Source of the DNA: a virus
IMG/VR virus record: IMGVR_UViG_3300041583_000151
Location: 1-21,958 of that record
Length of the DNA stretch: 21,958 nt
Strand: one strand, 5' to 3'
Shown here: positions 2,897-19,288 of the stretch, in pieces
How positions within the stretch are numbered: position 1 is the stretch's first letter
Layout: each line of letters begins with the position of its first letter
Made by a program: the position numbers and the translations under genes
Notes under the pieces: generated by a model
Told to the model about the DNA's origin: nothing
What the model saw: the letters and a program-made list of their open reading frames with translations, nothing else
Databases searched by the model: none

Positions 2897-3624
2897 ATAA
2901 GATCAACCCATTCAGTTGTCCGGGTTGCGGGCATGTCCACGATCTACGCGACACACCAGAGGGCGCGCTTAGCTATGAGTTCACCACAACCGCACCCACT
3001 GAGGCCGGCGTGGGTATACCTAAACCTTTCGAGGTTCAACGGTGCATTTTTACGCTCAGGGAGCGCGAGGATAGCCGAATCGTGCTCACGTACGATCCAA
3101 AGTGCACCCACACCGCGGCCGGTATGGATCTTGTGCTAGACGCAGCACAGGTGATCAAATCAGCCAAGCGATCAGGCAAAACGGAACACTACCGCGAGCG
3201 CCTGATCGTTGAATTGCAGTCACACCTTGCTGATGCGCTTGAGAAGATCCACAAGATGAGCGCACAGAAAGAAACGCGTGAGGCGGTGATCGAATCAATC
3301 AAGGGCGACGTGATCAAGCTCACCAGCAAGGTTGATGAGTTCCGATCGATCATGGCCAGCATAAGGGGTGAGCGTGATCACGCAGTGGCTCAAGCGGCAG
3401 CAAACGATCAGGCGTTTACTGATGCCTCAGCAGTGCGGGCCATTATTTCAAACTCGCAATCAAAGGCCATGCTACGCATGGCGGCGGCGCTGGCAGACCT
3501 TTTGCCGATGCACCCCAACGAGCCAAGATCAGAACACCAAAGCCGCGGCGAGGCGATCACCATGCACGCGATCGTGCTCACAGACGCCGAATGGGCCGCG
3601 TGGCTCACCCGCTCAAGCCATTGA
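2893..3624 (+). CDS. zinc-ribbon-like, coiled-coil accessory protein
   Basis: The start is set at ATG 2893, which overlaps the previous stop as ATGA; an in-frame ATG at 2842 lies inside the previous gene and gives a less natural N-terminus. The 243-residue product begins NPFSCPGCGHVHD, a CxxC knuckle (C9, C12) with nearby His 14 and 16, and a further Cys/His pair near residue 71 (PKCTHT). Residues about 100-190 are long charged helices likely to form a coiled coil. The C-terminus ends in a short helix with TDAEWAAWL. The zinc site is inferred from motif only. It is the last gene before the terminator at 3696. Confidence 0.6.
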   Translation: MNKINPFSCPGCGHVHDLRDTPEGALSYEFTTTAPTEAGVGIPKPFEVQRCIFTLREREDSRIVLTYDPKCTHTAAGMDLVLDAAQVIKSAKRSGKTEHYRERLIVELQSHLADALEKIHKMSAQKETREAVIESIKGDVIKLTSKVDEFRSIMASIRGERDHAVAQAAANDQAFTDASAVRAIISNSQSKAMLRMAAALADLLPMHPNEPRSEHQSRGEAITMHAIVLTDAEWAAWLTRSSH

Positions 3625-3695
3625 CCACGCTTTGATCTGGTGTAGGGTGCAATAAGGCCACGAAAACGGCCACGCGTCGCAGTAGCGGCGGGCAC

Positions 3696-3730
3696 AGGCC
3701 ACGCAATGACGACCTCTTGCGTGGCCTTTT
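3696..3730 (+). terminator. strong intrinsic terminator closing the accessory gene block
   Basis: AGGCCACGCAA (3696-3706) pairs perfectly with TTGCGTGGCCT (3717-3727) around a 10-base loop, followed by TTTT. This is the clearest terminator in the left part of the window and marks the boundary between the accessory genes and the packaging genes. Confidence 0.85.
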
Positions 3731-3744
3731 GCTTGGGGCCAGCA

Positions 3745-3972
3745 ATGAGCAAGCGACACAACAGCGGGGCCGCGATCCTCAGACCGCGCAAGATCGGCAA
3801 GGCCACCAAAATCACCAAGGCGGGGCCTGCCGCTTCGCTCACGTCGATCTCTGAGCTGAGCGACGCCGAATTTGACTCGCTGATCGAGTCAAGTTTTACT
3901 GAGGAAGTGCGCGAGCCGTTGATCGGCTTCACGGATTGCGGCGATGAGGCGGACTTTTGGTTGCCTGAGTGA
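3745..3972 (+). CDS. small acidic-tailed protein just upstream of terL
   Basis: ATG 3745 is preferred over ATG 3706, because 3706 lies inside the terminator hairpin and would add a hydrophobic leader translated from it. The 75-residue product has a basic N-terminal half (SKRHN, RPRKIGKATKITK) and a strongly acidic C-terminal half (ELSDAEFDSLIESSF, DEADFWLPE). Many phages encode the small terminase subunit at this position, but this protein is shorter than usual and I see no clear HTH, so that role is only a positional guess. The ribosome site is weak (GGGGCC upstream). It ends 24 bases before the terL start. Confidence 0.5.
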   Translation: MSKRHNSGAAILRPRKIGKATKITKAGPAASLTSISELSDAEFDSLIESSFTEEVREPLIGFTDCGDEADFWLPE

Positions 3973-3996
3973 TCCCGCGTCACTAAGATCAAGATC

Positions 3997-5211
3997 GTGA
4001 TCACACCCTCAACACCATCTAACGCGCTCGTCATCAACGGGCCGGTGCTCTACCCGAAACAATACCGCGCGATCATGGATCCGGCGCGGCATTGCTTTAT
4101 TGAGGCCAGCACCAAGGCTGGCAAGACGTTTGGCTGCATCGTTTGGCAGTTCGCACAGTGTTGTGCGCACGAGGGCAGGCGGCACCACTGGTGGGTTGCA
4201 CCCGTCTACAAGCAGGCGCGGATCGCCTATGAGCGGGCCAAGGAATACATACCCAAACAGGCCATCAAATCAATCAACGATGGCGAGATGTTTATCAGGC
4301 TGATCAACGGCGCCACGTGGACATTCAAAAGCGGCGAAAAGCCGGACAACCTCTTTGGCGAGGACGTCTATAGCGTCGTGATCGACGAGGCCAGCCGTTG
4401 CCGCGACGCAGTTTGGCAGGCGATCCGCTCAACCCTGACTGCCACCCGCGGCAGTACCCGCGTGATCGGCAACGTCAAAGGCCGAAAGAACTGGTTTTTC
4501 AGGCTATCACGCAGAGCGCAGAGCGGTGTTGAGGGCTACGCATACCACAAGCTCACCGCCTACGACGCGGCCGAGGGCGGGGCCATTGCGTACGCTGAGA
4601 TCGAGGAAGCCAAGGCCGACCTTCCTGATCACGTATTCCGAGAGCTTTACCTTGCTGATCCTTCCGAGGATGGCAGCAACCCGTTTGGCATCAAGCCGAT
4701 CGAACGCGCCAACAAAGGGCTCACCCACAAGCCGGTTGTGGTATGGGGGATCGACTTAGCCAAGTCGGTTGACTGGACCGTGCTTTGCGGCCTCGACGCT
4801 GAGGGCAATGTTGCTGAGCTTCAAAGATTCCAGCGCGATTGGCAGTCAACGATCGCATTTATCAAGGCCACAGTCGGCGGCACCCCGGCGCTGGTTGACA
4901 GTACAGGGCTCGGCGATCCGATCCTCGAAGACCTACAGAGCGCGGGCCTTGATAACTACGAAGGGCTCGTTTTTACCGGGCCATCAAAACAAAAGCTGAT
5001 GGAAGGCCTAGCGCTCGATTTTCACCGCGGCATCATGACGATCGGCAACGAGGATTTGGTTGACGAACTAAAAGACTTTGAGTTTGTTCACACGCGCACC
5101 GGCGTGCGCTACAGTGCGCCAGACGGCGCACATGATGATACTGTTTGCGCACTTGCGCTTGCGCGGCAACACTTTAGAAACAACCTCACACCCTCAGAAT
5201 GGTGGACCTAA
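3997..5211 (+). CDS. terL: terminase large subunit (packaging ATPase-nuclease)
   Basis: This 404-residue protein pumps DNA into the prohead and cuts the concatemer. The ATPase half shows a Walker A variant ASTKAGKT (residues 37-44), Walker B VVIDEAS (127-133, D130/E131) and a following GNVKGRKNW coupling segment (158-166). The RNase H-like nuclease half shows the three acidic sites: D253 in WGIDLAKSVDW, D301 in VDSTGLGDP and D380/D381 in GAHDDTVCALAL. Length is near the low end for the family but all motifs are present. The start is GTG 3997, since no ATG exists in this frame after the stop at 3970; its GTG is part of a GTGATCAC palindrome. The ribosome site is poor. It overlaps the portal start by one base (TAATG). 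Confidence 0.95.
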   Translation: MITPSTPSNALVINGPVLYPKQYRAIMDPARHCFIEASTKAGKTFGCIVWQFAQCCAHEGRRHHWWVAPVYKQARIAYERAKEYIPKQAIKSINDGEMFIRLINGATWTFKSGEKPDNLFGEDVYSVVIDEASRCRDAVWQAIRSTLTATRGSTRVIGNVKGRKNWFFRLSRRAQSGVEGYAYHKLTAYDAAEGGAIAYAEIEEAKADLPDHVFRELYLADPSEDGSNPFGIKPIERANKGLTHKPVVVWGIDLAKSVDWTVLCGLDAEGNVAELQRFQRDWQSTIAFIKATVGGTPALVDSTGLGDPILEDLQSAGLDNYEGLVFTGPSKQKLMEGLALDFHRGIMTIGNEDLVDELKDFEFVHTRTGVRYSAPDGAHDDTVCALALARQHFRNNLTPSEWWT

Positions 5212-7235
5212 TGAGCGACGAAACAAACGACGGCGGTGGCATGCAGAACCATAATGACGGCATGCAAAACGTGCTCACCAAACTCGGCACAACCAAGGAT
5301 CGCACACACCGATCAAACACTGAGATCGTGCAATCCGAAATCATTGATCCGATCTCGCTCACCTCGCTCTACCGAGATGATCATTACGTCGCACGCGTCA
5401 TCGACCTCATGCCAAACGAGAGCACCCGGCGAGGATTTGAGATCACGGTCGACGATCACGAACTGCAAGAAGATGTGCGTTACCATTTCAAGCGGCTTGG
5501 CCTGATCAAAAAGCTCAACCTTGCCAACAAGTGGGGCCGGCTGTACGGCGGCGGCGCCGTTGTGCTCGGCATCAGCGACGGTAAGCAGCTCAGCGAGCCC
5601 GTTGATCTCGAAGCGGTGAAAAGCGTGGACTGGGCGCTCACTCTCACCCGTCACGAACTGATATCAGACACGATCGAGAATGACCCAGCCGCCCCTTGGG
5701 GCTACGGCAAGCCAGCAACGTACAGGCTCAGCACAAACGTTGTGCACACTACCGGCAAGCTCAATCACGGCGATGTGATCCACGCGTCACGCGTGCTGAG
5801 GTTCGCGGGCACACAACTGCCTGAGCAGTACGGCGCGGAAAACGATTACTGGGGCGATCCCGTTGCTCAGCGTTTGATTGAATCAATCACGAATATCGTC
5901 AACTCAGATCGAGCGATCGGAAACACGATCCAAACATTCAATCAAGCCGTGTTCAAAAAGGCCGGCCTTGCGCAGATCATGCAGGGCGCGGGCGGCGAGG
6001 ATAAGCTGATCGACATGTTCACCACGATGAACATGGCGCAATCGATCCTCGGCATGATGATCGTAGATAAAAACGAGGAGTTCCAGAAGATCCAAACGCC
6101 AGTGTCAGGCCTTGCCGAACTTCACAGCGTCATGGTTCACGCCTACTGCGCGGCGGCTGACGCACCAGCCACGATCCTGTTTGGTACCCCGCCAAACGGC
6201 CTGAGTACCGACGACAAAAGCGGCCGGCAAAACTGGTTTGCCAAGGTGCGCAGCAACCAATCGGAAAACTACGTTCCCAATATTGAGTACGTGGTTGAGT
6301 TGATCCTAGCATCACTCGACGCTCTCGACGCTGACGCAAGCGTCACACCCAACCCGCTCGAAGAGCTCAACGACCTTGAGCAATCAACGATCTTCAAGAC
6401 CTACGTCGACGCAGCAGCATTGCTGATTGATCGAGGCGTGCTGATGCCACTTGAAGTGCGCCTGAGTTTTTTTCAATCAGGCCGATTTTCGCCAAACATC
6501 ACCCTGCTTGATCTTCCAGATCTCGACGGCGCCAGCGGTGGCAACTCATTCGGAAAAGCACAAAACGAGGCACCCGGCGACGTTGAAGGCGATCCGGCCG
6601 GCGATCTCGAATCCGAGGGCATGCCGGCCAGATCTGACGGCAGCCAAGCACAACCACTGATGCCGCCAAGCGAAGCAAGGCGCCAAGCGGCCAAGGGCCT
6701 TGACCTTCGCAAGCGCTTCAAGCACGGCGGCAGTGCAATGAGCCTCGTGCGCGCCAGCCACATCGCAGCGGGCCGACCCATGACCGTTGACGAGATCCGA
6801 GGCCTCAAGCGCTTTTTTGACGCCAACGAAAGCACCAAAAACACACCACCCGAAAAAGGCCGCGGCAAAATCAACTGGCTCCTGCACGGCGGCACACCCG
6901 CGCGCATTTGGGCGGATTCTGTGATCACGATGATCGACGCTCACCGGCTCACACGCACAAACACCACCACAAACGATCGTGATCACAACGACGCCAACAC
7001 CGATCCGCACGCAAAACGCTCAAGCCGGCGCAAGGTGCAAACTGAGATCGAGGCGGGCCGAATGAAGCCAGCAAAATCATTCAAGTGCAAGGTCTGCAAA
7101 AAGGCGCAGGCCACCGAGTATGACCACGTGAGCGGCTACGACGGCGACGATGCCAAGCTCAGCGTTGAGCCCGTTTGCGCAAGCTGCCACCACAAACGCA
7201 CCAACAAGCGAATCAAAGACGGCAACAACGAGTAA
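5211..7235 (+). CDS. portal protein (DUF1073 type) with extra C-terminal zinc/HNH-like domain
   Basis: Residues about 25-440 are a DUF1073-type portal: SLYRDDHYVARVIDLMPNES (52-71), a KWGRLYGGGAVVLGI block (107-121), HASRVLRF (191-198), GDPVAQRLIESI (215-226), and PATILFGTPPNGLSTDDKS (319-337) followed by NWFAKV. Portals form the 12-fold ring at the head vertex. After a Pro/Gly/Glu-rich linker (440-495) comes a second domain, KHGGSAMSLVRASHIAAG (504-521) to RGKINWLLHGG (551-561). A third domain has CKVC (C626, C629), EYDHVSGYD (636-644) and VCASCHHKRT (C656, C659, H660), an HNH/treble-clef-like zinc site. Start 5211 is favoured over 5199 because it overlaps the terL stop as TAATG and has GGTGGA upstream. 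674 residues is longer than a plain portal. Confidence 0.9.
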   Translation: MSDETNDGGGMQNHNDGMQNVLTKLGTTKDRTHRSNTEIVQSEIIDPISLTSLYRDDHYVARVIDLMPNESTRRGFEITVDDHELQEDVRYHFKRLGLIKKLNLANKWGRLYGGGAVVLGISDGKQLSEPVDLEAVKSVDWALTLTRHELISDTIENDPAAPWGYGKPATYRLSTNVVHTTGKLNHGDVIHASRVLRFAGTQLPEQYGAENDYWGDPVAQRLIESITNIVNSDRAIGNTIQTFNQAVFKKAGLAQIMQGAGGEDKLIDMFTTMNMAQSILGMMIVDKNEEFQKIQTPVSGLAELHSVMVHAYCAAADAPATILFGTPPNGLSTDDKSGRQNWFAKVRSNQSENYVPNIEYVVELILASLDALDADASVTPNPLEELNDLEQSTIFKTYVDAAALLIDRGVLMPLEVRLSFFQSGRFSPNITLLDLPDLDGASGGNSFGKAQNEAPGDVEGDPAGDLESEGMPARSDGSQAQPLMPPSEARRQAAKGLDLRKRFKHGGSAMSLVRASHIAAGRPMTVDEIRGLKRFFDANESTKNTPPEKGRGKINWLLHGGTPARIWADSVITMIDAHRLTRTNTTTNDRDHNDANTDPHAKRSSRRKVQTEIEAGRMKPAKSFKCKVCKKAQATEYDHVSGYDGDDAKLSVEPVCASCHHKRTNKRIKDGNNE

Positions 7236-7240
7236 CAGCG

Positions 7241-9904
7241 ATGGCGACACAACCCAAACAACAGGCGCCAAAGCTCAACAAGAAGCCGCGCCTGCCGCGG
7301 TCATTCAGCATGCTTGCGAGCGAATACGCGCTTGCACTCGAAAGCAAAGTGGCCGGGCCAACCCAAGAACGCCAACTGATCAAAGCCGTGATCACGACAA
7401 TCAACCAAGCCTACGCCGAGCGATACGATGCTCAGCCAGATCCAATCACGCCAAAGGGTTACGCCGAGGGCCTCAAGGCGATCGATGGTTTTCAGATCAA
7501 GGCTATGGACGATCAAAACCAAGCGGCCACCCATAGGTTGATCGAGGGGCACCTTAAAAAGCTCAGCAACCACAACCAAAACGACCTAGAAGATCAATGG
7601 ATCAAGGTGCTTGGCATCAGCCCATTGATCCCTAACGATCCAAACGTGTTCAAGATCCTAATGGCCACCACCAGCACAAGCGTTGACAAGATCAAGACCC
7701 TTGAGGCGATCCACTTTGGCAGCCTCAAAAGCATGCTGATCATGAGCTATTCACGGGGCGAAACCACCGAGGATCTCACCAAGAAGATCCAAAAGCAGTT
7801 CGGCGTTACAAGGTCACGCGCTCGATTCTACGCAGTAAATGAGATGGGCAACCTCAACGCGGCGCTCACTGAGCACAAGCAGACAGAGGCAGGCGTCACC
7901 CGCTACATTTGGCGCACAAGCGAGGATGAGCGCGTACGCGACACACACGCCACAAAGAACGGCGAGATATTCGAGTGGGCCAACCCACCCGAGGACACAG
8001 GCCACCCCGGCCGTGACTACCGTTGCCGCTGCACCGCTGAGCCGATCCTTGATGACGAGGACATGCCTGATGATGCTGATTTCTGGAACGCGTTTGAGGA
8101 TGAGCCCGCGCAGGATCCACACTTGGTGGCCAAAGATCTACGTTCAGAGCTTGGCTTGTCACAGGCCGTGGTGGCAAAGGATATGGGCCACAGTCGCGGA
8201 TGGCTCACCCGGTATGAGACGGGCAAGTCAGCACTCAGCCTTGAGGACATGGGCCGGCTCAGGGCCTACTACGCAGAGAAAGGGGCCACGCCTGAAACAC
8301 TGGCGCAGATCTTCGGCGAAACACCAGAGCTACCGTGGCGCCCGTCAGTGGTTGCACCACCCAAGCCGATCGTACCTAAGCCGGCAACGCTTGGCGGCAA
8401 TGGCCTGCCAGAGCTTGACGCTGAGGACGTGATCACGGCCATTGAGCGTGGCGAGCTTTTTGAGTTCAAAAAGCGTGCGACCGATGAGTATTTCGACAGC
8501 AACGATCAGGTGTTTGATATTGTTGAGGCACGATGGAAAAAAATGCTCAACGACTCAGGCCTCACACCCTCAGCACCGGGCACGTCTACAATATTTAATG
8601 CGACACAATTTGATGAGATCAACAAGGAGCTGACTGCGCTTAAGGATGGCCTTAATTGGCACAGGCTTGATCGTGTGGCTATCCTTAGGGCAAAGGGTGA
8701 ACGCGTATCCGAATCAAAACTTCTTGAGCAAGATCCACTTTTCGCCAACTTTTGGGATAAACTCGACCCTGTACTTAAAAAGGATTACGCCAAGGAATAC
8801 GCCGCCCTGATATCAGATCCTTATGAGCTTGAGGTTAGCGCTGGTTATGGGTTCAAGGGTGGCAAGTTTATGGCAGGCCCTGAGCCTCAGCGCATGGCTG
8901 ATTTGCTTACAATGATCAGGGGCAGTGATGCTTATAGCACAGAACGCCACCTCGCAAACATTGCCGCGCGCGAGGCAGAGATCGCAATGGATCTGGCCGA
9001 TAATGAATCCATGATGAGCAGTGTTCTTGATATAATGAAGCGCCTTGAGCGGCGCATTGACGCAATACCAAAAGATCAAAGGTTCTCGACTGCTGAGATT
9101 TTTGAGAACTACCTGACGAAGCAGGCAGCCCGATTCAGGGTTGAGGATATCGACGCCATACCTATGCACGGCAGTTTTAAATACACCGACCTTTTAGGTG
9201 GCAGGCTTACAGGCAAGAAGCCAAGGCGCAAGGCCGCAAAGCTGGGTCAGATTCACAATGGAATCATGAGGTCTGGTGATGAGATATTCACGTCCTTTGA
9301 GCAGGTTGGTTATGCGCCGTTTGGTGCTCCGCCGCCTATGGATTCGATCCTTGAGTTTGTTAAGAAAACAACCGCAGAGGATAAGGTTGCTGATGCGATA
9401 TCTAAGAAATACATGCGTGGCATGTTGCGAACAAAGGGGGGAGGTAAGCGCCCGATTTATCACACGTTTATTGAGGATAGGGCATACCACAGTGATGGCA
9501 GGAATGGTAAGTATGGGATCATCAACGTTGGCTATGAGAAGGGTGCGTACAAAGCTGAGGTGATCACGCATGAGTACGGCCACGCAGCCGAGACTTTAAA
9601 CCCGGTGCTTGACGAGGCAGCTAAGCGGTACTTGCTCAAGCATGCCAAGTTGAGCGGCGCAAGTGTCACCGAGATATACAAGGGCACCACCGAGACTGGT
9701 TGGAAGTTAGACGGGTTTAGTAGCCATTATTCAGGAAAGATCTATGGGAAAGTTGCGCCGCAAGATCATAGTGATTTGCGCGCAACCGAGATCACATCGA
9801 TGGCGATCCAAGAGGTTGGCACGGGCAAGCCGATTAAGAATGATGGCAGGAACGTCAACCTGATCAAGTGGCTGGTTTCAGTGGTCAGCGGTGACTTTCA
9901 GTAA
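7241..9904 (+). CDS. MuF-type minor head protein fused to HTH and zincin-like metallopeptidase domain
   Basis: 887 residues from ATG 7241 (an in-frame start at 7175 lies inside the portal gene). Residues 160-270 are a MuF/phage Mu gpF head morphogenesis domain, ending in the classic block YIWRTSEDERVRDTH (222-236) and HPGRDYRCRC (255-264). Residues about 294-350 form an XRE-type HTH: LRSELGLSQAVVAKDMGHSR and WLTRYETGKS. A Pro-rich linker (360-385) leads to a 500-residue C-terminal region without recognisable family until VITHEYGH (774-781), an HExxH zincin site (H777, E778, H781), with E850 in RATEITSMAIQ as a plausible third ligand. Plain MuF proteins are much shorter. Known MuF proteins can carry toxin or enzyme tails, so an effector delivered with the DNA, or a capsid-maturation peptidase, are both possible. 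The 3' half has fewer GATC sites and more ATA codons than its surroundings. Confidence 0.9.
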   Translation: MATQPKQQAPKLNKKPRLPRSFSMLASEYALALESKVAGPTQERQLIKAVITTINQAYAERYDAQPDPITPKGYAEGLKAIDGFQIKAMDDQNQAATHRLIEGHLKKLSNHNQNDLEDQWIKVLGISPLIPNDPNVFKILMATTSTSVDKIKTLEAIHFGSLKSMLIMSYSRGETTEDLTKKIQKQFGVTRSRARFYAVNEMGNLNAALTEHKQTEAGVTRYIWRTSEDERVRDTHATKNGEIFEWANPPEDTGHPGRDYRCRCTAEPILDDEDMPDDADFWNAFEDEPAQDPHLVAKDLRSELGLSQAVVAKDMGHSRGWLTRYETGKSALSLEDMGRLRAYYAEKGATPETLAQIFGETPELPWRPSVVAPPKPIVPKPATLGGNGLPELDAEDVITAIERGELFEFKKRATDEYFDSNDQVFDIVEARWKKMLNDSGLTPSAPGTSTIFNATQFDEINKELTALKDGLNWHRLDRVAILRAKGERVSESKLLEQDPLFANFWDKLDPVLKKDYAKEYAALISDPYELEVSAGYGFKGGKFMAGPEPQRMADLLTMIRGSDAYSTERHLANIAAREAEIAMDLADNESMMSSVLDIMKRLERRIDAIPKDQRFSTAEIFENYLTKQAARFRVEDIDAIPMHGSFKYTDLLGGRLTGKKPRRKAAKLGQIHNGIMRSGDEIFTSFEQVGYAPFGAPPPMDSILEFVKKTTAEDKVADAISKKYMRGMLRTKGGGKRPIYHTFIEDRAYHSDGRNGKYGIINVGYEKGAYKAEVITHEYGHAAETLNPVLDEAAKRYLLKHAKLSGASVTEIYKGTTETGWKLDGFSSHYSGKIYGKVAPQDHSDLRATEITSMAIQEVGTGKPIKNDGRNVNLIKWLVSVVSGDFQ

Positions 9905-10233
9905 GCAAGGCCAGACTTAGTGGGCTCAGGTATGTAGGGTTGATCGGCAACGATCTTGAGCACAAAAGCTTGCTGATTTTCAGCCGCTGCTTGCATGATC
10001 CTTTTTGCGGCGGTGGGTTGTGACGCCTGCCATTCCATGCCGGCGATCTCTTCGCTCAGTGACTCAAGCAGATCAATAAAGGTGCCGCTATCAGCCTCAA
10101 GGCCGTTGGCCATCAGGGTTGCGCCGTCGGTGCCTTTGCGCTGGTATGATGCGATCACGCGCTCACTTGTTCGCCCCGGATTGCTGATCAGCATATAGAG
10201 TTGCGTGGTTGTTTTTGACTTGCTGGTTTTCAT
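9898..10233 (-). CDS. uncharacterised minus-strand protein convergent with the MuF gene
   Basis: 111 residues, starting MKTSKSKTTTQLYMLISN and ending KSGLAY. The N-terminus is basic. The middle is acidic and helical (DLLESLSEEIAGMEWQASQ), followed by an Ala/Gln-rich helix and a strand reading AFVLKIVADQPYIP. I do not recognise it. Its start overlaps the stop of the upstream minus-strand gene as ATGA, so the two are translated together. Its 3' end overlaps the end of the MuF gene tail-to-tail by 7 bases. Because immunity genes sit next to muF toxin genes in described systems, an immunity or regulatory role is possible, but antisense orientation is unusual and nothing in the sequence proves it. 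Confidence 0.75.
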   Translation of the reverse strand: MKTSKSKTTTQLYMLISNPGRTSERVIASYQRKGTDGATLMANGLEADSGTFIDLLESLSEEIAGMEWQASQPTAAKRIMQAAAENQQAFVLKIVADQPYIPEPTKSGLAY

Positions 10234-11462: not shown

Positions 11463-12623
11463 TTGAAAGTCACACGCCTAGACAAAGGCCTACTCAAAAC
11501 ATCACGCAAAACGCCAGAGGGTTACCTCATGTTCGAGGGCTATGCGTCACGCGCTGGCGTGTTCAGGTACCGCGATCAAGCGGGCGTGATCACGGCTGAG
11601 TTGAGGCCAGCCTCTGAGGTGGGCCGCGCTGACTCACTGGCAACCCTCGCACGCAAACCCGTTACCAATACGCACCCCAATGTACCCGTCACCGCTGAAA
11701 ACGCAGACAGGTTTAGCGTGGGCGCGCTTGACGGCGAAGTGAACTGGGAGTCTGACTTTGAGGACGGCTTTATCAAAGTGCGCGGCATTGTGCAGCGCAA
11801 GGACGCCGTTGACGCAGTCGACGCAGGGCGCCAAGAACTCAGTTGCGGCTACACGTGCGATCTCGACGAAACACCGGGCCAGTGGACAGACAGCCTCGGC
11901 GCCGTGCACGAGTACGACGCGATCCAACGCAACATCACATACAACCACCTCGCACTGGTCGACAAAGGCAGGGCGGGCAGTCAGGCACGGCTACGTGTTG
12001 ACGCTGCAATGGTTGACGATGACACCGAACAAACACCACAGCCCAAACAATCAGGGCAAGCAGGAGCTAAAATGAAGATCCGAATTGACGGCCAAGAGTA
12101 CGACATCACCGAGGAAGCGGCCATCAAGCGCGCGCTTGACGCTCAGCAAAAGCGCAACGACGAGGCCGCGGCCAAACTCGCTGAGGCTGAGGCCAACGCA
12201 CAGGCGGCACAGGCAGCAACCGTTGAGGCCGTCGCAAAAGCTGACGCAGCAACCGCACAGCTTGCCACCGTCACCGCAGAGCGTGACGTGCTCAAGCTCG
12301 ACGCAGACAAAGCACCGCCAATAACTGATGCAGCCGAGCGCATGGCTTGGCACACCGAGCGCATGGAGCTCAGCAAACGAGCTGACGCGCTGGCGATCGA
12401 AGTTGAGGCCGAGGCCAGCAACGACGAGATCAAGCGCGCAATCGTGCTCAGCCGTTTCGACGCTGAGGACCTGCCAACGCAGGCGCACATTGACGCGGCA
12501 TTTTCGCTGATGAGCAAAGACACCGCAGCACCCGCACCGACCACAACCCGCGCTGATTCTCAGCAACAGGAGCCGTCAGGCGTTGTTGCCGCAGAGGACG
12601 CCTATCACGCGCAGTTTCGCTAA
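11463..12623 (+). CDS. DUF2213-type prohead protease with scaffold-like C-terminus
   Basis: 386 residues from TTG 11463, with GAGGG at 11452-11456. TTG is accepted because the family's N-terminus (KTPEGYLMFEGYASRAGVFRYRD, 17-39) lies right after it. Residues 1-180 match DUF2213: ELRPASEV (46-53), DSLATLARKPVTNTHP (57-72), QRKDAVDAVDAGRQELSCGY (111-130) and IQRNITYNHLALVDKGRAG (154-172). H71 and S127 in LSCGY resemble the His and Ser of caudoviral prohead proteases (LSxGY/F motif); catalysis is inferred. Residues 204-386 are a long Ala/Glu-rich coiled coil typical of scaffolds. An internal start at 12072 could make this scaffold alone. The protease would cleave scaffold and head proteins during maturation. 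Confidence 0.85.
   Translation: MKVTRLDKGLLKTSRKTPEGYLMFEGYASRAGVFRYRDQAGVITAELRPASEVGRADSLATLARKPVTNTHPNVPVTAENADRFSVGALDGEVNWESDFEDGFIKVRGIVQRKDAVDAVDAGRQELSCGYTCDLDETPGQWTDSLGAVHEYDAIQRNITYNHLALVDKGRAGSQARLRVDAAMVDDDTEQTPQPKQSGQAGAKMKIRIDGQEYDITEEAAIKRALDAQQKRNDEAAAKLAEAEANAQAAQAATVEAVAKADAATAQLATVTAERDVLKLDADKAPPITDAAERMAWHTERMELSKRADALAIEVEAEASNDEIKRAIVLSRFDAEDLPTQAHIDAAFSLMSKDTAAPAPTTTRADSQQQEPSGVVAAEDAYHAQFR
12072..12623 (+). CDS. nested in-frame scaffold protein
   Basis: ATG 12072 is residue 204 of the protease frame and is preceded by AGGAG (12062-12066) at ideal spacing. This is a better ribosome site than that of the parent gene, and it lies exactly at the junction between protease and coiled coil. 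The 183-residue product starts MKIRIDGQEYDITEEAAIKR, then a long Ala/Glu/Lys helix (about 20-80), a charged helix with ERMAWHTERMELSKRADAL, and ends HAQFR. The arrangement copies the known lambda C/Nu3 design, where scaffold is made from an internal start in the protease gene. Separate production is inferred. Confidence 0.65.
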   Translation: MKIRIDGQEYDITEEAAIKRALDAQQKRNDEAAAKLAEAEANAQAAQAATVEAVAKADAATAQLATVTAERDVLKLDADKAPPITDAAERMAWHTERMELSKRADALAIEVEAEASNDEIKRAIVLSRFDAEDLPTQAHIDAAFSLMSKDTAAPAPTTTRADSQQQEPSGVVAAEDAYHAQFR

Positions 12624-12682: not shown

Positions 12683-13795
12683 ATGGCGCTTCAAAACTAC
12701 ATCAGAGACGGCCTCTATAAAGGCCTCGTTGGCGAACCATCGAACAACAGCCCACTCAACCTTGCGATCACGTGTGTCAACGACGCACCACGCGCAGCAC
12801 AGGTGAGCACGGTTGTGGTCGACACCGCCGTTAACTCGGCAGCTTATACCGTCACCGTTGACGGGATCGACGTAACGTATACGGCTGACGCATCAGCGAC
12901 CAAGATCGAGATCGCGGACGGCCTTGCTGCCGCGCTCAATTCTGAGGGCCTGATCAGCGGTCGAATCAAAGCGGCAAGCAATGGCGTGGATACCGTCACG
13001 CTCACCGCTCGCGTTGGCGGCGAGGCCTTCACGCTCAGCGAGTCTGATGCGAACCTCACCTCTGCAACCTCAAGCGCAAACGCAGTGGCAGCACCGCTCT
13101 ACATGGGCCGTGCGGTCAAACTTGATCCAAGCGTCACCAACGCTGACAATCAGGCCGTGGAAGCTGCAAGCGCATTTTCGGCGCTCGCATACGTGATCAC
13201 ACCTGCCGCGGTTAACCTTGCGGCTTACCTTGTTGATGTAACGTTCCGCGGTCAGGGCTACAAGGCTCAATATACCGCTGATGCATCAGCAACCGTGCAA
13301 GAGATCGTGGAAGGCCTGCAAGCGGCTTTGGCTGGCTTGCTGCCTGCCGGCGTTGTTGCCACTGAGAACAACACCACCCTCACGCTCACCGCGGCAACAC
13401 CGGGCGACACGTTCACCGTTTCGGCTGGCTCAAGCGCAGCAGCTGCAACAATGACCGTCACGCACAACTTGAGCGCTGACACCTCGGCAGACCTCGGTCT
13501 GATCGGCGTGGCTCAGCGTGACATGACGCGCGAGATGGAAGTTGGATCGGAAGATCCTTTCTTTGCTGGCAACAGCGCGATCCCGACCCAGTTCTCAGGC
13601 GTGATCAATGTGCCGATTGAGGCGCCGATCACAAGCCTGAGCCAGGGTGTCTATGTGCGCGTGGCAGCCAACGGCGCGCTTGACAAGATCGGCGGATTCT
13701 CACCCGTGGCAGGTACCGGCTTGGTTCTTTGGAACAAGGCAAAATGGGCACGTCAACTTGAGTCGGGCCTTGCCTCACTCAAGCTGATGGCCTGA
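12683..13795 (+). CDS. capsid cement/decoration protein with two inserted beta modules
   Basis: 370 residues, placed between protease/scaffold and capsid gene, where cement proteins lie. The core appears to be residues 1-35, 136-168 and 270-370 (GRAVKLDP; FSGVINVPIEAPITSLSQGVYVRVAANG; NKAKWARQLESGLASLKLM). Two related modules of about 95 residues interrupt it: 36-135 (AYTVTVDGIDVTYTADASAT) and 170-265 (AYLVDVTFRGQGYKAQYTAD). Each has strand, then EIxxGLxxAL helix, then LTLTA strands. Such modules are likely displayed on the head surface. ATG 12683 has AGGA at 12671-12674, in a leader shared with the capsid gene. The cement identity rests on position and core pattern. Confidence 0.7.
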   Translation: MALQNYIRDGLYKGLVGEPSNNSPLNLAITCVNDAPRAAQVSTVVVDTAVNSAAYTVTVDGIDVTYTADASATKIEIADGLAAALNSEGLISGRIKAASNGVDTVTLTARVGGEAFTLSESDANLTSATSSANAVAAPLYMGRAVKLDPSVTNADNQAVEAASAFSALAYVITPAAVNLAAYLVDVTFRGQGYKAQYTADASATVQEIVEGLQAALAGLLPAGVVATENNTTLTLTAATPGDTFTVSAGSSAAAATMTVTHNLSADTSADLGLIGVAQRDMTREMEVGSEDPFFAGNSAIPTQFSGVINVPIEAPITSLSQGVYVRVAANGALDKIGGFSPVAGTGLVLWNKAKWARQLESGLASLKLMA

Positions 13796-13861
13796 TCAAC
13801 CAAGCGGCTGATCACTGATCGCTGAAACAACATAACCGTTTAAGAAAACAGGACAAATAAG

Positions 13862-14851
13862 ATGATTAAGATCAAAAGAAAAATCGAAGTGGTTCGCGCT
13901 GATGATATTGCGTTCATTGACGCACGCATGAGCGAGCGCCATGACGCTGATATCACGGCGATCGGATCGGGCCAGTTCTTCAAGCGACAGCTTGAGCACG
14001 TCTATTCGACTACCTATCAAGCATCAATGCCGATGCCGAACAGCCTCCGTTTGTTCCCGGTGGATACCGAGATCAACGAGGGTGCGACCTCGTACGTTCA
14101 CCGTATGATGGAGCCCGTGGGTGAGGCGATCGTGATCTCGAATTACGGCAACGACCTTCCACGCGTGAACACGGTGATGCGTGAAGAGGTCAAGCAACTC
14201 AAGGATATTGGTAATTCCTACAGCTACTCGATCAAAGATATCGCCAGCGCACGCATGACGGGCGCCAACATTGACGGCGATCGTGCATACGCTTCGCGTG
14301 AGGCCATCGAGCGCAAACATAATGAGATCTTCTGGTGGGGCCTCGCTGAGTTCGGCCTCTACGGCGCGCTTAACCACAACTCGATCCCGCGCTTCATTTT
14401 CTCGGTTGCGCTCAACAGCGCAAGTGATCCAGACGATGTGGTTAACGAGCTCAATGCGTACGTTAACAGCGTTAACGCGCTCACCAAAACCACCGCGTTT
14501 GTGGATACATTGGTGCTGCCGGCTGACGAATACGCGTACGTGATGAGTACGCCACGGTCGCCAAACAGCGACACTACGATCGGCCAGTTCTTGATCCTCA
14601 ATAATCCGTTTCTCAAAACGATTGAACAGGCGTGGGAGCTCGGCGGTGATATCGTTCACAATAACGGCCAGTCGCTTGCTTTTGCTTACCGCAAGAGCCC
14701 GCTTGTGGCCAAGGTTGTCGCGCCGATCATCTATCGTCAGTTGCCAATGGAGCGCAAGAATCTTGAGTTTGTCACCAACTGCACAGGCATGAACGGTGGG
14801 TTCTACTCACCCAAGCCGCTTGAAATCTGCGTTGGTGAATTGCTTGCCTAA
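13862..14851 (+). CDS. major capsid protein (DUF2184 type)
   Basis: 329 residues. It matches DUF2184 capsid proteins of the HK97 fold: an N-terminal helix, FFKRQLEHVYSTTYQASMPM, a GATSYVHRMMEPVGEA strand region, a conserved core AYASREAIERKHNEIFWWGL followed by GLYGALNHNSIPR, and a C-terminal KVVAPIIYRQLPMERKNLEF with EICVGELL. The protein forms the icosahedral shell. No long N-terminal scaffold (delta) domain is seen, in keeping with a separate scaffold at 12072. The ribosome site AGGA (13850-13853) lies in a 13-base leader identical to that of the cement gene. A hairpin and strong terminator follow, fitting high expression of this gene. Confidence 0.9.
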   Translation: MIKIKRKIEVVRADDIAFIDARMSERHDADITAIGSGQFFKRQLEHVYSTTYQASMPMPNSLRLFPVDTEINEGATSYVHRMMEPVGEAIVISNYGNDLPRVNTVMREEVKQLKDIGNSYSYSIKDIASARMTGANIDGDRAYASREAIERKHNEIFWWGLAEFGLYGALNHNSIPRFIFSVALNSASDPDDVVNELNAYVNSVNALTKTTAFVDTLVLPADEYAYVMSTPRSPNSDTTIGQFLILNNPFLKTIEQAWELGGDIVHNNGQSLAFAYRKSPLVAKVVAPIIYRQLPMERKNLEFVTNCTGMNGGFYSPKPLEICVGELLA

Positions 14852-14890
14852 TGGCGGCAAGATGTGATCAACTCGTGATCACGATCATTT

Positions 14891-14908
14891 GCGGGGGGCG
14901 ACCCTCGC
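14891..14908 (+). other. GNRA-tetraloop hairpin after the capsid gene
   Basis: GCGGGGG (14891-14897) pairs with CCCTCGC (14902-14908), with one G-U pair, around the tetraloop GCGA. It precedes the terminator by six bases and may stabilise the 3' end of the capsid message. Confidence 0.5.
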
Positions 14909-14914
14909 ATAAAC

Positions 14915-14957
14915 GGGTGCGGCCGGCTTGTTTGGGTTGTCTGCCGCACCCTTTTTT
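14915..14957 (+). terminator. strong intrinsic terminator after the major capsid gene
   Basis: GGGTGCGGC (14915-14923) pairs with GCCGCACCC (14943-14951) around a 19-base loop, followed by TTTTTT (14952-14957). It separates head genes from neck and tail genes and should lower expression of the latter relative to capsid. Confidence 0.85.
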
Positions 14958-14990
14958 AATCCAAACACAACCCAATTTAAGGTGATCAAA

Positions 14991-15272
14991 ATGAGCGAAA
15001 AACAAGATCCAAAGGCAGCCGCAACTGAGCAGAAAACGGTCCTCATTGAGAGCAAGCTGATCTATCCCCTCACCGTGAGCCGCCAGATCCGCGAGGAAAA
15101 CGGCGCCTTGAAGTCTGGCAGGCGTACGATCAGCATCGTGCCGGCCAACATTCAGATCAACGATCTGCCACTTGGCACCACCCCGATCCCCTCTGACGTT
15201 TGGCGCGAACTGATGAAAATGCCACAGATCGCCACTAAGCTCAAAAACGGCACACTCAAGGTTGTTTCGTAA
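14991..15272 (+). CDS. uncharacterised small protein at the start of the neck module
   Basis: ATG 14991 is chosen because AAGGTGA lies at 14979-14985; a longer start at 14928 would lie inside the terminator loop. The 93-residue product has a charged N-terminus (SEKQDPKAAATEQK), then strand-like stretches (TVLIESKLIYPLTVSRQI, RRTISIVPANIQINDLP) and a C-terminal helix (SDVWRELMKMPQIATKL). It overlaps the following DUF4054-type gene by one base (TAATG), so the two are probably co-translated and may act together at the head-tail junction. I do not recognise a family. It contains no membrane segment. Confidence 0.65.
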   Translation: MSEKQDPKAAATEQKTVLIESKLIYPLTVSRQIREENGALKSGRRTISIVPANIQINDLPLGTTPIPSDVWRELMKMPQIATKLKNGTLKVVS

Positions 15273-15655
15273 TGAGCACGTCCAGCGACAAATTACGAGG
15301 GCTCTGGCCTGAGTTTGCCACCGATCCCGCTGATGCCATCGTTGATCTGTTCATTGAAACGGCAACGAGTCAAATGAGTGTCACGAGGTGGGGCAAACTC
15401 TTTGAGCTTGGCGCGATCACCCTTGCCGCGCATATGCTCGCACTGCGCAAGCGCTCACTTGCTGCCGCTGGCAGTGCACTTGGCGGGCCAGTGGGCGGCC
15501 TCACTGCGCTGAGCACGGGCGACGAGTCGATCAGCTTTGGTGCCGTGGGCGCGGCCACCGCTGATGAGTTTGACACCAGCCTACGCACCACCCCGTACGG
15601 CCTCGAATTTTTAAGGCTCAAGTCACTTCTTGTGCTCACACCGATCAACGTCTGA
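15272..15655 (+). CDS. DUF4054-type head completion/adaptor protein
   Basis: 127 residues. The layout is that of DUF4054 phage proteins: an N-terminal LRGLWPEFATDPADAIVDLFIETAT, a WGKLFELGAITLAAHMLALRKR helix (residues about 40-62), then STGDESISFGAV and a terminal TTPYGLEFLRLKSLL. These proteins bind under the portal and form the first connector ring in related phages. The helical bundle is clear from the pattern. It starts by TAATG overlap with the preceding gene, and its TGA stop is part of the ribosome site of the next gene (TGAGGTGAT, 15653-15661). Confidence 0.8.
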   Translation: MSTSSDKLRGLWPEFATDPADAIVDLFIETATSQMSVTRWGKLFELGAITLAAHMLALRKRSLAAAGSALGGPVGGLTALSTGDESISFGAVGAATADEFDTSLRTTPYGLEFLRLKSLLVLTPINV

Positions 15656-15664
15656 GGTGATCCC

Positions 15665-16132
15665 GTGGCAACCAAAACCAAGATCAAAGACAACGACAAA
15701 ACAAAGACCATCTTTGCTGAGCTTGCGGCGCTTAACGGGCGCACACTTGCCGTTGGTGTGATCGGGCATGCGGCACAGTGGAGCCCCGGAAACGGCGGCG
15801 CCAACATGGCTGACATAGCCACGTTCAACGAGTACGGCACACGCACGATCCCGGCGCGGCCTTTCATCAGAACGGCGATCGACGAGAACGCGGCATCCTA
15901 CGAGAAAATGATCAAGAAAGGCCTCGGCTACCTCGTCAAACCGGGCGGCGCCATCACCCTACTCAACCGGCTATCGCTCAAGGCCGTTGCTGATGTTCAA
16001 CGCAAGATCGTGACGATCAAAAAACCGCCAAATGCGGCGAGTACGATCAAGGCAAAAAAATCATCTAACCCGCTGATCAACACGGGCCGCATGCGGCAAT
16101 CGATCAGCGCAGAAATCAGGCTGAAAACATGA
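15665..16132 (+). CDS. HK97 gp10-like neck/tail completion protein
   Basis: 155 residues from GTG 15665, preceded by AGGTGA at 15655-15660. Signature elements are VGVIGHAA (30-37), FNEYGTRTIPARPFIR (54-69), and the block PPNAASTIKAKKSSNPLINTG (121-141) followed by RMRQSI, which is typical of gp10-like/tail completion proteins of many tailed phages. Such proteins bridge connector and tail. The start codon GTG lies within TGATCCCGTG; no better ATG is available. The end overlaps the next gene as ATGA, beginning a chain of three such overlaps (16129, 16557, 16919). Confidence 0.8.
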   Translation: MATKTKIKDNDKTKTIFAELAALNGRTLAVGVIGHAAQWSPGNGGANMADIATFNEYGTRTIPARPFIRTAIDENAASYEKMIKKGLGYLVKPGGAITLLNRLSLKAVADVQRKIVTIKKPPNAASTIKAKKSSNPLINTGRMRQSISAEIRLKT

Positions 16133-16560
16133 AACCACTTTTGATCAACCTTGTTGCGATCACCCACTTGCGCATTGGCGGCCGTACACTCACACCACCA
16201 CCAAACACCGACCGCGGCCGGGCCGATCGCTATATTCAAATCTTTGAAATCAGCGCGGCAAAGGCCGTTGTTGCTGCCAAGCAAATGCAGCCAGCTTTTG
16301 ATCACGACACGCAGGCACTCACCCGCGCAGGCGGCGTGACTTGCGCATCATTTTACGGGCCGTTCAAGGCGGCAACCGCCACGGCCCCTGAGCCCGCGCC
16401 TACTGAGCCCGCAAAGCAAGAGGCCACACTCACGCCTGAGCCGGCCAAAGGGGCCGGCACAGTGCCAGACGTTAAGCCTGAGCCCGCAAAAGAGCCAGCC
16501 ACTGAAACACGGGCAAGCCAGCGCAAGCGAAGGCCAGCACGCGAAACAAACAGCAAATGA
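16129..16560 (+). CDS. uncharacterised protein with Ala/Pro/Glu-rich repeats
   Basis: 143 residues. Residues 1-80 look globular (LLINLVAITHLRIGGRTLTPPP; YIQIFEISAAKAVVAAKQM). Residues about 84-126 are a low-complexity tail containing five EPA units (PEPAPTEPAK, TPEPAK, KPEPAK, EPATE), and the end is basic (SQRKRRPARETNSK). A flexible acidic repeat followed by a basic end suggests an extended linker binding a charged partner. Its tight coupling by ATGA overlaps on both sides argues for a structural role at the neck, but I do not recognise it. Confidence 0.65.
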   Translation: MKPLLINLVAITHLRIGGRTLTPPPNTDRGRADRYIQIFEISAAKAVVAAKQMQPAFDHDTQALTRAGGVTCASFYGPFKAATATAPEPAPTEPAKQEATLTPEPAKGAGTVPDVKPEPAKEPATETRASQRKRRPARETNSK

Positions 16561-16922
16561 TCAACGCTCGCACATACACCGTCAAACGCTTTGCCAAGAC
16601 GCTCACCAATGGTGTGATCACGGTTGCTGAGGTCTCGACGTTTGAGATCGCGGGCAATGTGCAGCCTATGAGTGATCGGCAGATCAATGCGGCGCCTGAG
16701 GGCTTCCGCGAGATGCCGGGCGGCAAGTTCAAGTTTTACACCGAGGATCTCAGCAAGCCGATCCTCGTTTCAGGCGGAGGCTTGATCGATGGCACCACTG
16801 AGCCTGACGCGATCGAGTATATGGGCGGCCTGCTCTACGTGCATGGGATCGAGGATCGGCGCCACGGCCTGATTCCCCACATCAAGTATTTGTTGATCCA
16901 ACCGCAGGTGCCGGCAACATGA
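16557..16922 (+). CDS. head closure/neck-type protein (tentative)
   Basis: 121 residues. It is beta-rich: TYTVKRFAKTLTNGVITVAE, then TFEIAGNVQPMSDRQI, EGFREMPGGKFKFYTED, and a C-terminal GGLLYVHGIEDRRHGLIPH followed by IKYLLI. The V-Q-P element followed by a short helix and a barrel-like set of strands resembles small head-closure (stopper) proteins in related phages, from memory. Its position, between a gp10-like gene and the neck terminator gene, fits this. It is co-translated with both neighbours through ATGA overlaps. The assignment is moderate because no single signature is decisive. Confidence 0.6.
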   Translation: MINARTYTVKRFAKTLTNGVITVAEVSTFEIAGNVQPMSDRQINAAPEGFREMPGGKFKFYTEDLSKPILVSGGGLIDGTTEPDAIEYMGGLLYVHGIEDRRHGLIPHIKYLLIQPQVPAT

Positions 16923-17458
16923 TCGACGTTTACCAGCCAACGCACGCAGAGATCAGCGCACGGGCTTTTGTGATCAGCGCGCTTGCGCTCGCAGGGATCA
17001 CCACCGAGGTGCTCTATGCGAATCAGGGCGCGGTGCGCCTGCCGGTGCCGTTTATCACGGTACAGGTGATCACAGATATTGAGGGCCACACCCCTGAGGT
17101 GATCACGATCGAGGGCGACACTGCCGGAATGGTCAACACTGAGATCCACGAATACCGCACAGGCACCGCAACGATCGCTTGTTATGGGCCAACCTCGTGG
17201 GCGCTGGCACACGCGATCGCGCGCGCGGTTTACGCGGTAAACGAGATCGAGTTTTTCGCGATCAACGAAGTGAGGGCGATCACCGATGCGCCTGAGCCAA
17301 TGGCCACTGGCTTTGAGCGGCGCGCGATACTTGACCTTGCGATCAGCTATACAGACTTGAACGTGATCACAAACAGCAATCAGGCGCTTGAATCAACCAC
17401 GATTACTGGCACAATCAACGGCGTTGACGCCGAAATCACAGAAAATTGGCCAACATAA
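16919..17458 (+). CDS. neck terminator protein, LIC_12616/gp12-like
   Basis: 179 residues. The pattern PVPFITVQVITDIEGHTPEV, then EIHEYRTGTATIACYGPTSWALAHAIARAV and a terminal beta region fits the LIC_12616 or gp12-like neck terminator proteins that precede DUF3383 sheath genes. Such proteins end the tail tube and meet the head connector. The C-terminal 40 residues (TNSNQALESTTITGTINGVDAE) look like an extra strand pair. The start overlaps the previous gene (ATGA). This gene shows the strongest GATC bias in the window: 15 of its 21 Ile codons are ATC preceded by G. Confidence 0.75.
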   Translation: MIDVYQPTHAEISARAFVISALALAGITTEVLYANQGAVRLPVPFITVQVITDIEGHTPEVITIEGDTAGMVNTEIHEYRTGTATIACYGPTSWALAHAIARAVYAVNEIEFFAINEVRAITDAPEPMATGFERRAILDLAISYTDLNVITNSNQALESTTITGTINGVDAEITENWPT

Positions 17459-17470
17459 CGGAGCCCCATA

Positions 17471-18799
17471 ATGTCTCTTGACAGCATCATTGATATTGAT
17501 ATCGCACTTTCTAGCCCATCGGTTTCGCGCGCGGGCTTTGGCACCCCAATGCTTTTGGCCTCAGGCCTCGGCGCGGGCTTTACTGAGCGCATCAGGTTCT
17601 ATTCGAGCGCAACAGAGGTTGCGGCAGACAGTGATCTCAGCGCAAGCGCACAGGCTCGCGCAACCCTAATGCTTGCGCAGGCACTTAGGCCTGATCGCAT
17701 TGCGGTGGGTCGACGTGAGGCGGCCGTTGCGCAGGTTGATACTCTGGTTGTCACTGCCGCGGCTGATGGTGTTTATACCGTCACGATCAACGGCATTGAT
17801 TTTGCGTTTACCGCCACATCCTCAACCGTGACGGCAATCCGTGATGCGCTTTTGGCGGCCATCAACCTCGGATCTGAGCCTGTCACCGCGGCGTCCGTAT
17901 CAACCAACACGTTGACGCTCACCGCAGATGTTGCGGGTGTTCCGTTTCTGGTTTCGATCGTCAGCGTGTCACCGATTACGCTCAGCACCACCGTTGCAAA
18001 CGTAGGTGTCACTTCTGAGATCTTGGCCGTTGAGGCTGAGAGCTCGGCTTGGTACGGCCTTGTTCTTGAGTCACGAGATGATACGGACATTCTGCTTGCG
18101 GCCGGGCAGATCGAGGCCATGCAAAAGGTGTTTATCGCGCAATCAAACAGCGCAGATCTGATCACCGTGGCCACCACTGACATCGCCAGCCAGATCAAGG
18201 CGCTGAGCTACCGGCGCACGCACGTTGCTTATATCAGCAGTGACACGAACCATTACGATGCAGCGCTTGCGGCCTCATTCTTGTCGTCAGACTTTGACGA
18301 AACGGCGCCAACGGCAACGCACTTGATCTTGCAGGGTGTGACAAGCGAAGAGCTTGGCACCACCGCACAAGCTAACCTTGAGGCCAAAAACGCTGGGTTC
18401 TACTCGACCCTGTTCGGCCTGCCGGCCGTTGCCAACTGCCTCACCGCGGCAGGTTACGATCTGGAACTGATCGTTACGGTCGACTGGGTTAAGGCGCGCA
18501 TGAGCGAGGCCGTAGCACAGCTTTTCAGCAACCGCGCAAACGGTCGCAAGCGCATTGGCTTTGATGATATCGGCTTTCAAATGGTTGCCGCTGAGGCTGA
18601 GGGTGCGGCGCTTGTTGGGGAAGACGTCGGGCACTTTATCAAGGGAACGGTTGTTTTCGAGGTTCCTGCGCGTGCTGATGTGGCCACCGCTGACGAGGCG
18701 ATCAGCAAGTTGCGCATGCGCTTTGGTGCTCAGTATTCGGGCCGTACAAAATCGGTCAGTGTGCAGGGCTACGTGAGCCAGAGCTTTGCCGGCCTTTAA
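17471..18799 (+). CDS. contractile tail sheath protein (DUF3383 type) with inserted beta module
   Basis: 442 residues. DUF3383 elements include the N-terminal VSRAGFGTPMLLA (18-30), RIRFYSSATEVAAD (40-53), ALRPDRIAVGRR (71-82), LSYRRTHVAYI in the middle and a C-terminal half with VDWVKARMSEAVAQLF, NRANGRKRIGFDD and RFGAQYSGRTKSVSVQGYVS. The sheath contracts to drive the tube through the host envelope, so its presence defines a myovirus-type tail. Residues about 88-180 (GVYTVTINGIDFAFTATSST; TLTLTADVAGVPFLVS) are a module related to those in the cement protein at 12683. ATG 17471 follows GGAG at 17460-17463. Confidence 0.88.
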   Translation: MSLDSIIDIDIALSSPSVSRAGFGTPMLLASGLGAGFTERIRFYSSATEVAADSDLSASAQARATLMLAQALRPDRIAVGRREAAVAQVDTLVVTAAADGVYTVTINGIDFAFTATSSTVTAIRDALLAAINLGSEPVTAASVSTNTLTLTADVAGVPFLVSIVSVSPITLSTTVANVGVTSEILAVEAESSAWYGLVLESRDDTDILLAAGQIEAMQKVFIAQSNSADLITVATTDIASQIKALSYRRTHVAYISSDTNHYDAALAASFLSSDFDETAPTATHLILQGVTSEELGTTAQANLEAKNAGFYSTLFGLPAVANCLTAAGYDLELIVTVDWVKARMSEAVAQLFSNRANGRKRIGFDDIGFQMVAAEAEGAALVGEDVGHFIKGTVVFEVPARADVATADEAISKLRMRFGAQYSGRTKSVSVQGYVSQSFAGL

Positions 18800-18853: not shown

Positions 18854-19288
18854 ATGTCACGCAAAAAAACATACAACCTCGCCAGAGTGATCATGACGGT
18901 CAACGGCGTACCCATGAGCGGATTCGGTGAATCTGATGCCGCAAAGTGGGAGCCCAACAGTGATATCTGGGAGACAACCGTTGGCGCTGATGGCGAGTTG
19001 ACGCGCAACAAAACCAACGACGACAGTGGCAAGTTAACGTTTACGTTCAGTAAGATGAGTATGAGCAACGGCGTGCTCAACGTGTTTTTGCAACTGGCCA
19101 AAAACCTCGGCATTGGCGACACGTTCACGATCATGATCAACGACCTCAACGGCGGTGACAAACTGATCGCGATCGACTGCTATATCGAGCGCGAGCCCGA
19201 TCTTGCATTTGGCAAGACGGCCGGTGATAAAGAGTGGATCATCAAAACGCCAAGCGGCAAAACAAGCCACGGCGGATCGCTGATCTGA
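18854..19288 (+). CDS. tail tube protein (DUF3277 type)
   Basis: 144 residues. The pattern fits DUF3277 tail tubes: an N-terminal YNLARVIMTVNGVPMSGFGE, then DIWETTVGADGELTRNKTND, SGKLTFTFSKMSMSNGVLNV and a C-terminal IDCYIEREPDLAFGKTAGDK. Hexamers of this protein would stack to form the inner tube. It directly follows the sheath gene, as expected. The ribosome site lies in CAGGAGCTAAA (18841-18851), identical to that of the nested scaffold at 12072, which suggests both are translated efficiently. A hairpin precedes and another follows the gene. Confidence 0.82.
   Translation: MSRKKTYNLARVIMTVNGVPMSGFGESDAAKWEPNSDIWETTVGADGELTRNKTNDDSGKLTFTFSKMSMSNGVLNVFLQLAKNLGIGDTFTIMINDLNGGDKLIAIDCYIEREPDLAFGKTAGDKEWIIKTPSGKTSHGGSLI

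Follow-up and report, generated by a model that had tools for sequence, protein, structure and literature searches.

Tailed phages build their heads and tails along separate assembly routes, and the proteins of the two are generally regarded as unrelated. In a 21,958-nucleotide stretch of DNA from an uncultured phage (IMG/VR record IMGVR_UViG_3300041583_000151, positions 1 to 21,958; hereafter the window), a reading made from the sequence alone had noticed one beta-rich segment three times, twice in the head cement protein and once in the tail sheath protein, and had proposed a surface-display module that was duplicated and moved between capsid and tail, perhaps for binding to polysaccharide or for stability. 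Are these segments copies of a single domain, and what would such a domain do on both parts of a virion? The genes and segments concerned are the following.

12683..13795, plus strand: head cement/decoration protein, 370 amino acids (aa), with two inserted modules in a putative phrog_563/PF22758-type core
12791..13093, plus strand: module A, cement residues 37-137 (profile core 44-130), set after the N-terminal arm and ahead of the first body strand
13181..13474, plus strand: module B, cement residues 167-264 (profile core 171-261), in the second loop
17471..18799, plus strand: tail sheath protein, 442 aa, matching phrog_205 over residues 1-436 (E 3.9e-61)
17723..18016, plus strand: module S, sheath residues 85-182 (profile core 91-177), an outer-domain insertion

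A, B, and S are copies of one homologous module of about 90 residues. Pairwise comparisons used local BLOSUM62 alignment and 5,000 composition-preserving shuffles of the segments (A, cement ∼36-137; B, cement ∼169-265; S, sheath 85-182). The scores for A against B (137, z 15.2) and for A against S (143, z 14.4) were reached by 0/5,000 shuffles, whereas B against S was weak when taken alone (66, z 3.8, reached by 14 of the 5,000). With whole proteins, BLASTP aligned cement to sheath at E 2e-10, with 48% identity across 81 residues. A module profile scored B at 67 bits and S at 69 bits, which makes both clear members, bearing in mind that the profile was iterated on these same sequences. Applied to the 1,346 six-frame open reading frames (ORFs) of all loci collected by then, the profile gave 40 matches at E<1e-3, every one on the sense strand; the best reversed decoy stood at 0.009 and the best shuffled decoy at 1.3. 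Some sequences used in building that profile were among those searched, and the independent evidence is provided by separate profile scans for new contigs and cultured phages. Single-module identity, three copies in two virion proteins, and their positions were thus borne out as first read, and the motifs quoted at the time (YTVTINGIDFAFTA, STVTAIRDALLAAI, and TLTLTADVAGVPFL) proved near-exact for A and B and only a loose fit for S.

Since none of the Pfam, NCBIfam, or PHROG models used is specific for the module, a named domain family would be justified. When 30 modules were scanned with the Ig-like (Big_2, PKD) Pfam profiles, a single weak Big_2 match (0.03) was obtained, never in a window module. 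Among the Pfam flagellin/FliD families only FliD_N touched module B, at 0.05 and under the cut-off, so that this likeness exists at the level of fold only.

Both cement copies interrupt a recognizable core. The uncut cement protein had no useful match in Pfam, NCBIfam, or PHROG scans; the 175-residue core that is left when A and B are cut out is matched at E 8e-8 by phrog_563, a virion structural protein of 173 aa, and it was recognized only because the modules had been removed. PF22758 (Phage_cement, the family of E217 gp24 and Pam3 gp6) did not match the window cement protein, cut or uncut. One-module relatives match it at 2e-10 to 2e-19 (one of them, L007, at 1.8e-10, with phrog_563 at 1.7e-9), and module-free cement proteins of 156-173 aa from Acinetobacter phage 5W and Xanthomonas phage DIBBI match it over nearly their full length. 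Because the window protein itself is unmatched, its membership in PF22758 rests on the phrog_563 match and on these relatives, from which its core appears to be of the phrog_563/PF22758 type.

Two core positions are constant in all module-bearing cement proteins. At the first, the insertion begins near residue 40 in every case, following the N-terminal arm and preceding an FG-x-x-V strand; at the second, it lies between the FG-x-x-V strand and the next conserved GV strand. The first site maps to a plausible place on E217 gp24, at about residue 42 and ahead of the AFGY strand; the second could not be placed on that protein, to which the core profile barely aligns. The match of the excised core to phrog_563 and the existence of relatives without the module agree with the insertion into core loops for which a check had been proposed.

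In the tail, a phmmer search with the window sheath found the solved sheaths of 9zdk (gp76, 7e-38), Sf14 (5e-27), and PhiTE (3e-26), and also those of Bas63 and Phi92 (the phage names for entries 9c39, 9cb9, and 9mt4 were taken from structure-search matches). DUF3383 did not match the window sheath; it does match that of its relative L005 (5e-15). When the 358-aa sheath of another relative, G001, is aligned to the window sheath, the gap spans the module. A profile of 30 modules finds the Phi92 (1e-12) and 9zdk (1e-11) sheaths, and weakly finds the Milano sheath, A-1(L), and 9zd7 gp88 (E 0.012).

AlphaFold2, run on the cement protein and two relatives, returned a mean predicted local distance difference test (pLDDT) score of 49, with the modules mostly at 60-83 and the cement core, expected in its family to be a beta-tulip trimer at three-fold axes, under 40. 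A and B were modelled alike, as three strands, a helix, and four strands (beta3-alpha-beta4). The model of A matched residues 91-186 of the A-1(L) sheath (Z 14.5, root-mean-square deviation (rmsd) 1.7 over 95), and that of B matched residues 86-178 of the PhiTE sheath (Z 12.6) and residues 75-238 of crAss001 gp36 (Z 11.0, rmsd 2.6, 105 residues). Other fold matches of the cement modules were a baseplate wedge (9ndy, Z 11.8), FliC (Z 10.5), the T7 nozzle (Z 10.3), the Sf14, Milano, Mu, and 7-7-1 sheaths, the Bas63 wedge, FliD, and, at lower Z, GbpA; XM1 was not among the 50 PDB matches listed for the cement model, an absence that excludes nothing. Foldseek on predicted viral proteins recovered tail tubular protein B, a gp47-like wedge, sheath and crAss-like proteins, and a mycobacteriophage minor capsid protein. 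The cement modules are predicted to share the fold of solved sheath outer domains. Of the common fold anticipated for all three segments, the part concerning A and B held; the sheath model was too poor for judging S, and most of its fold matches fell on the C-terminal core, so that S is assigned by sequence homology, though the domain occupies the equivalent position in solved sheath homologues.

We consider A, B, and S to be copies of one autonomous beta3-alpha-beta4 domain, set into loops of virion subunits and most likely serving as rigid, soluble outer spacers. Phages insert a domain of the sheath-insertion, FliD/FliC, or crAss001 "FD" fold into such loops, and one fixed site in the sheath and two in the cement protein would place many copies outside head and tail, where they could provide extra contacts between neighbouring subunits and a thicker outer shell. 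The outward placement is suggested by the location of the domain in solved relatives: domain III of the Mu sheath reaches outward (PMC11915804). Trimers of E217 gp24, of the same cement family, build an inter-capsomer cage (PMC10329688), and the crAss001 FD domain contacts the A-domain of the major capsid protein (PMC10172136). Module A is also the most conserved part of the cement protein: between the window and L004 it is 59% identical and the C-terminal core 22%, and between the window and L007 the figures are 53% and 46% (overall, 53-59% as compared to 22-46%). The window modules are acidic, contain 3-6% aromatic residues, and have no Trp. Together with where solved sheaths carry their outer domain, the E217 cage, and the crAss001 contact, this conservation and composition support a structural role, and they favour an outer-shell or spacer function over classic glycan binding; of the two roles first suggested, stability would be the likelier.

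Several observations weigh on the other side. Within the sheath, conservation is lowest in the module (34-36%, as compared to 47-64% for the rest), which is not what a key structural contact would predict. Cell-surface and chitin-associated proteins (surface flagellin, GbpA) are among the relatives by fold. The cement model is usable for the modules only, and the sheath model, built from five sequences, has a mean pLDDT of 40, its strand and helix order agreeing at that low confidence.

An adhesive display is the alternative that survives best. The modules would then act as ligands on the virion surface, each with weak affinity for host or environmental polysaccharide but numerous, a role that has been proposed for Ig-like decoration domains. 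A bacterial cell-surface flagellin (2zbi/3k8v, 26-27% identity over 89 residues) and GbpA bind glycans and share this fold with the modules, which would also be present in high copy number on the outside; moreover, extra sheath domains have been proposed as adhesion aids (PMC9230969). The cell-surface relatives and this published proposal speak for adhesion, but we judge it unlikely. The aromatic-poor, acidic composition argues against it, module A shows the strongest conservation within the cement protein rather than diversification, and the Pfam carbohydrate-binding families gave only a weak CBM_4_9 match (0.03) in 1 of the 30 modules. Polysaccharide binding, as put forward by the sequence-only reading, thus found no positive evidence. 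The structural and adhesive readings become distinguishable by deletion of the module in a cultured relative.

A viral-contig scan with a four-module alignment yielded 22 contigs. Cement and sheath both contain the module in seven contigs (the window, L007, L031, L034, G012, L038, and L045). Cement proteins with one module, all lacking B, are those of L007 (274 aa), L034, L037, L038, and L045; two modules are present in those of the window, G001, L029, L031, L032, G012, and G017, and the fragmentary cement protein of L033 has at least one. Sheaths mostly have one module starting at about residues 87-100; those of L038 and G012 have two, and that of L046 has one complete module and part of another. 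The 60.8-kb contig G001 has two cement modules and no further detectable copy. In G012 (L048, G012:C1:9000-22000, 3744-10206) five modules occupy three virion proteins: two in cement, two in the sheath, which look like a tandem duplication (70% DNA identity), and one inside the tail terminator (PF23961, 1e-12). Baseplate wedge proteins carry it in AAM37, HNL01, L040/L041, L043, L044, and VCM. The survey that had been called for thus found relatives in which the module is absent or in another copy number (0, 1, or 2 in cement; none in the G001 sheath). With two copies in cement and one in the sheath here, and with one to three module-bearing virion proteins in relatives, a single stock part is reused across the virus particle.

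In other searches, tblastn of the window cement protein against the phage collection and a prophage search with the cement alignment returned nothing, and tblastn of S or B alone against phages gave no match at E 1; module A alone found 11 phage records. The DIBBI sheath was not counted as a carrier, as an independent profile gave E 0.2 and its segment had earlier been placed in a profile by hand. In the cultured Pseudomonas phage VCM (L012) the module is found in the baseplate wedge (ORF at 23125, E 1.5e-5) and in the sheath, which makes this phage a tractable system. Elsewhere, G017 has a module in a 241-aa protein of the fibre-side region (L050 2408-3133), and L035 has one in a protein with a weak tail-fibre match just upstream of its sheath (3537-4712). 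Another sheath family, phrog_17610/phrog_23, bears the module at residues 99-186 in L039 (4722-6197) and L053 (ORF at 5722); this family also occurs in the Picosynechococcus sp. PCC 7117 chromosome.

A second alternative concerns origin: the sheath module could have been copied recently from the cement gene of its own genome, or the reverse, with the copies homogenized per genome. Window S scores 143 with cement module A, above its scores with the modules of the sheaths most closely related to its own, those of L005 and L006 (108 and 98), and the G012 sheath pair shows how close tandem copies can be. Site-1 cement and sheath pairs are also slightly more alike within than across genomes (permutation p 0.008; shuffle-corrected, 0.024), a small test of six genomes, uncorrected for relatedness, which hints at exchange between head and tail genes. 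Against this, A and S in the window share only 51% DNA identity, the insertion sites are fixed for each protein, and once the set was enlarged, window S came closest to the modules of the G012 terminator and sheath. The module tree is too short to place window S and rejects neither a sheath clade (approximately unbiased p 0.45) nor a clade of window S with cement (p 0.12-0.21). We therefore find recent copying within this genome improbable; of the proposed duplication and movement, three homologous copies in head and tail stand, while a recent move between capsid and tail finds no support in the DNA identity, the fixed sites, or the tree, which leaves the donor ambiguous. A broader scheme, in which one interchangeable domain forms a common outer coat over head cement, neck terminator, sheath, and baseplate, being gained, lost, tandem-duplicated, and partly homogenized in each genome so that head and tail surfaces match, is rather doubtful. 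Finally, that the likeness reflects merely a Thr/Ala/Val-rich beta composition is scarcely credible despite the 54-60% A+T+S+V content of the modules and the weak B-S alignment, as the shuffles refute it for A-B and A-S, neither reversed nor shuffled decoys fit the profile, and A and B agree in the succession of strands and helix and resemble solved domains of one kind.

In the window, the cement gene lies between the protease gene and the major head protein gene, directly preceding the latter. The neighbouring features are as follows.

11463..12623, plus strand: head maturation protease (phrog_530, E 1e-70)
13862..14851, plus strand: major head protein, without module (phrog_264, E 6e-63)
16919..17458, plus strand: tail terminator, without module, an uninterrupted family match (PF23961, E 5e-13)
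18854..19288, plus strand: probable tail tube protein by its position adjoining the sheath, without module (phrog_280, E 2e-31, annotated in PHROG as virion structural protein; no match to the module profile)

The window products identified from PHROG or Pfam are terminase, portal, Mu-F-like head protein, protease, cement, major head protein, terminator, sheath, and tape measure; the window ends upstream of the baseplate genes, and any wedge protein of this phage would lie outside. Two head genes have features of their own. The portal protein (5199-7235, plus strand; PF06381, phrog_146) runs on in frame, its C-terminal end resembling an HNH endonuclease (residues ∼602-676, PHROG E 0.005-0.06; no HNH match in Pfam), and is possibly a portal-HNH fusion. 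The 909-aa Mu-F-like minor head protein (7175-9904, plus strand) combines a helix-turn-helix of XRE type in its interior (HTH_31, 3e-8, residues 320-367) with a zincin-like motif, HEYGH, towards its C-terminus, which is unusual in a head protein.

How much of this is new? Earlier papers have described the fold, its location in sheaths, and a capsid auxiliary protein with a FliD/FliC-like domain (PMC10457771, PMC10172136). In the open-access literature we found no description of a module with sequence-level similarity that one phage carries in its head cement as well as its sheath, at fixed sites but in varying number, and that recurs in terminator and wedge proteins, and this absence is weak evidence, as only open-access papers were covered. 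Within the papers searched, the sequence-level reuse of a known fold across head cement, sheath, terminator, and wedge is thus the new element. Such a shared domain amounts to a natural experiment on building virion surfaces from a common part, and it links the XM1 sheath InD and the crAss001 capsid FD domain, separate observations in the literature, to one fold.

Among known systems, the closest is the outer or insertion domain of sheaths (XM1 InD; A-1(L), PhiTE, Sf14, Milano, Mu), which has the fold predicted for the cement modules (Z 11-14.5) and a position equal to that of module S (residues ∼85-185). The likeness of the XM1 InD to FliD D3 was noted by its authors (PMC10457771). This domain is known from tail proteins, whereas the window phage has two more, similar in sequence, in its head cement. 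The wedge (J-like) insertion domain of baseplates (A-1(L) gp31 81-180, the Bas63 wedge, 9zd7 gp88), which matches the module in profile and fold, is likewise restricted to the tail. On the capsid side, crAss001 gp36 resembles the cement protein in having a FliD/FliC-like FD domain (residues 75-237) inserted in an auxiliary capsid protein, a domain its authors called unique to most crassviruses (PMC10172136), but it combines a PH-like core with one FD copy, as compared to a probable PF22758-type core with two modules. The PF22758/phrog_563 proteins (E217 gp24, Pam3 gp6) are alike in core family and in their place beside the major head protein; the DIBBI and 5W members have no module and the window protein has two. 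The Ig-like/BIG2 domains of T4 Hoc, Sf14 gp20, and the 9kmh/9kzj decoration protein also add an extra beta domain to the virion surface in variable copy number (PMC11821841), but they differ in fold and are appended at an end, whereas the window modules are helix-containing beta3-alpha-beta4 domains inserted in loops.

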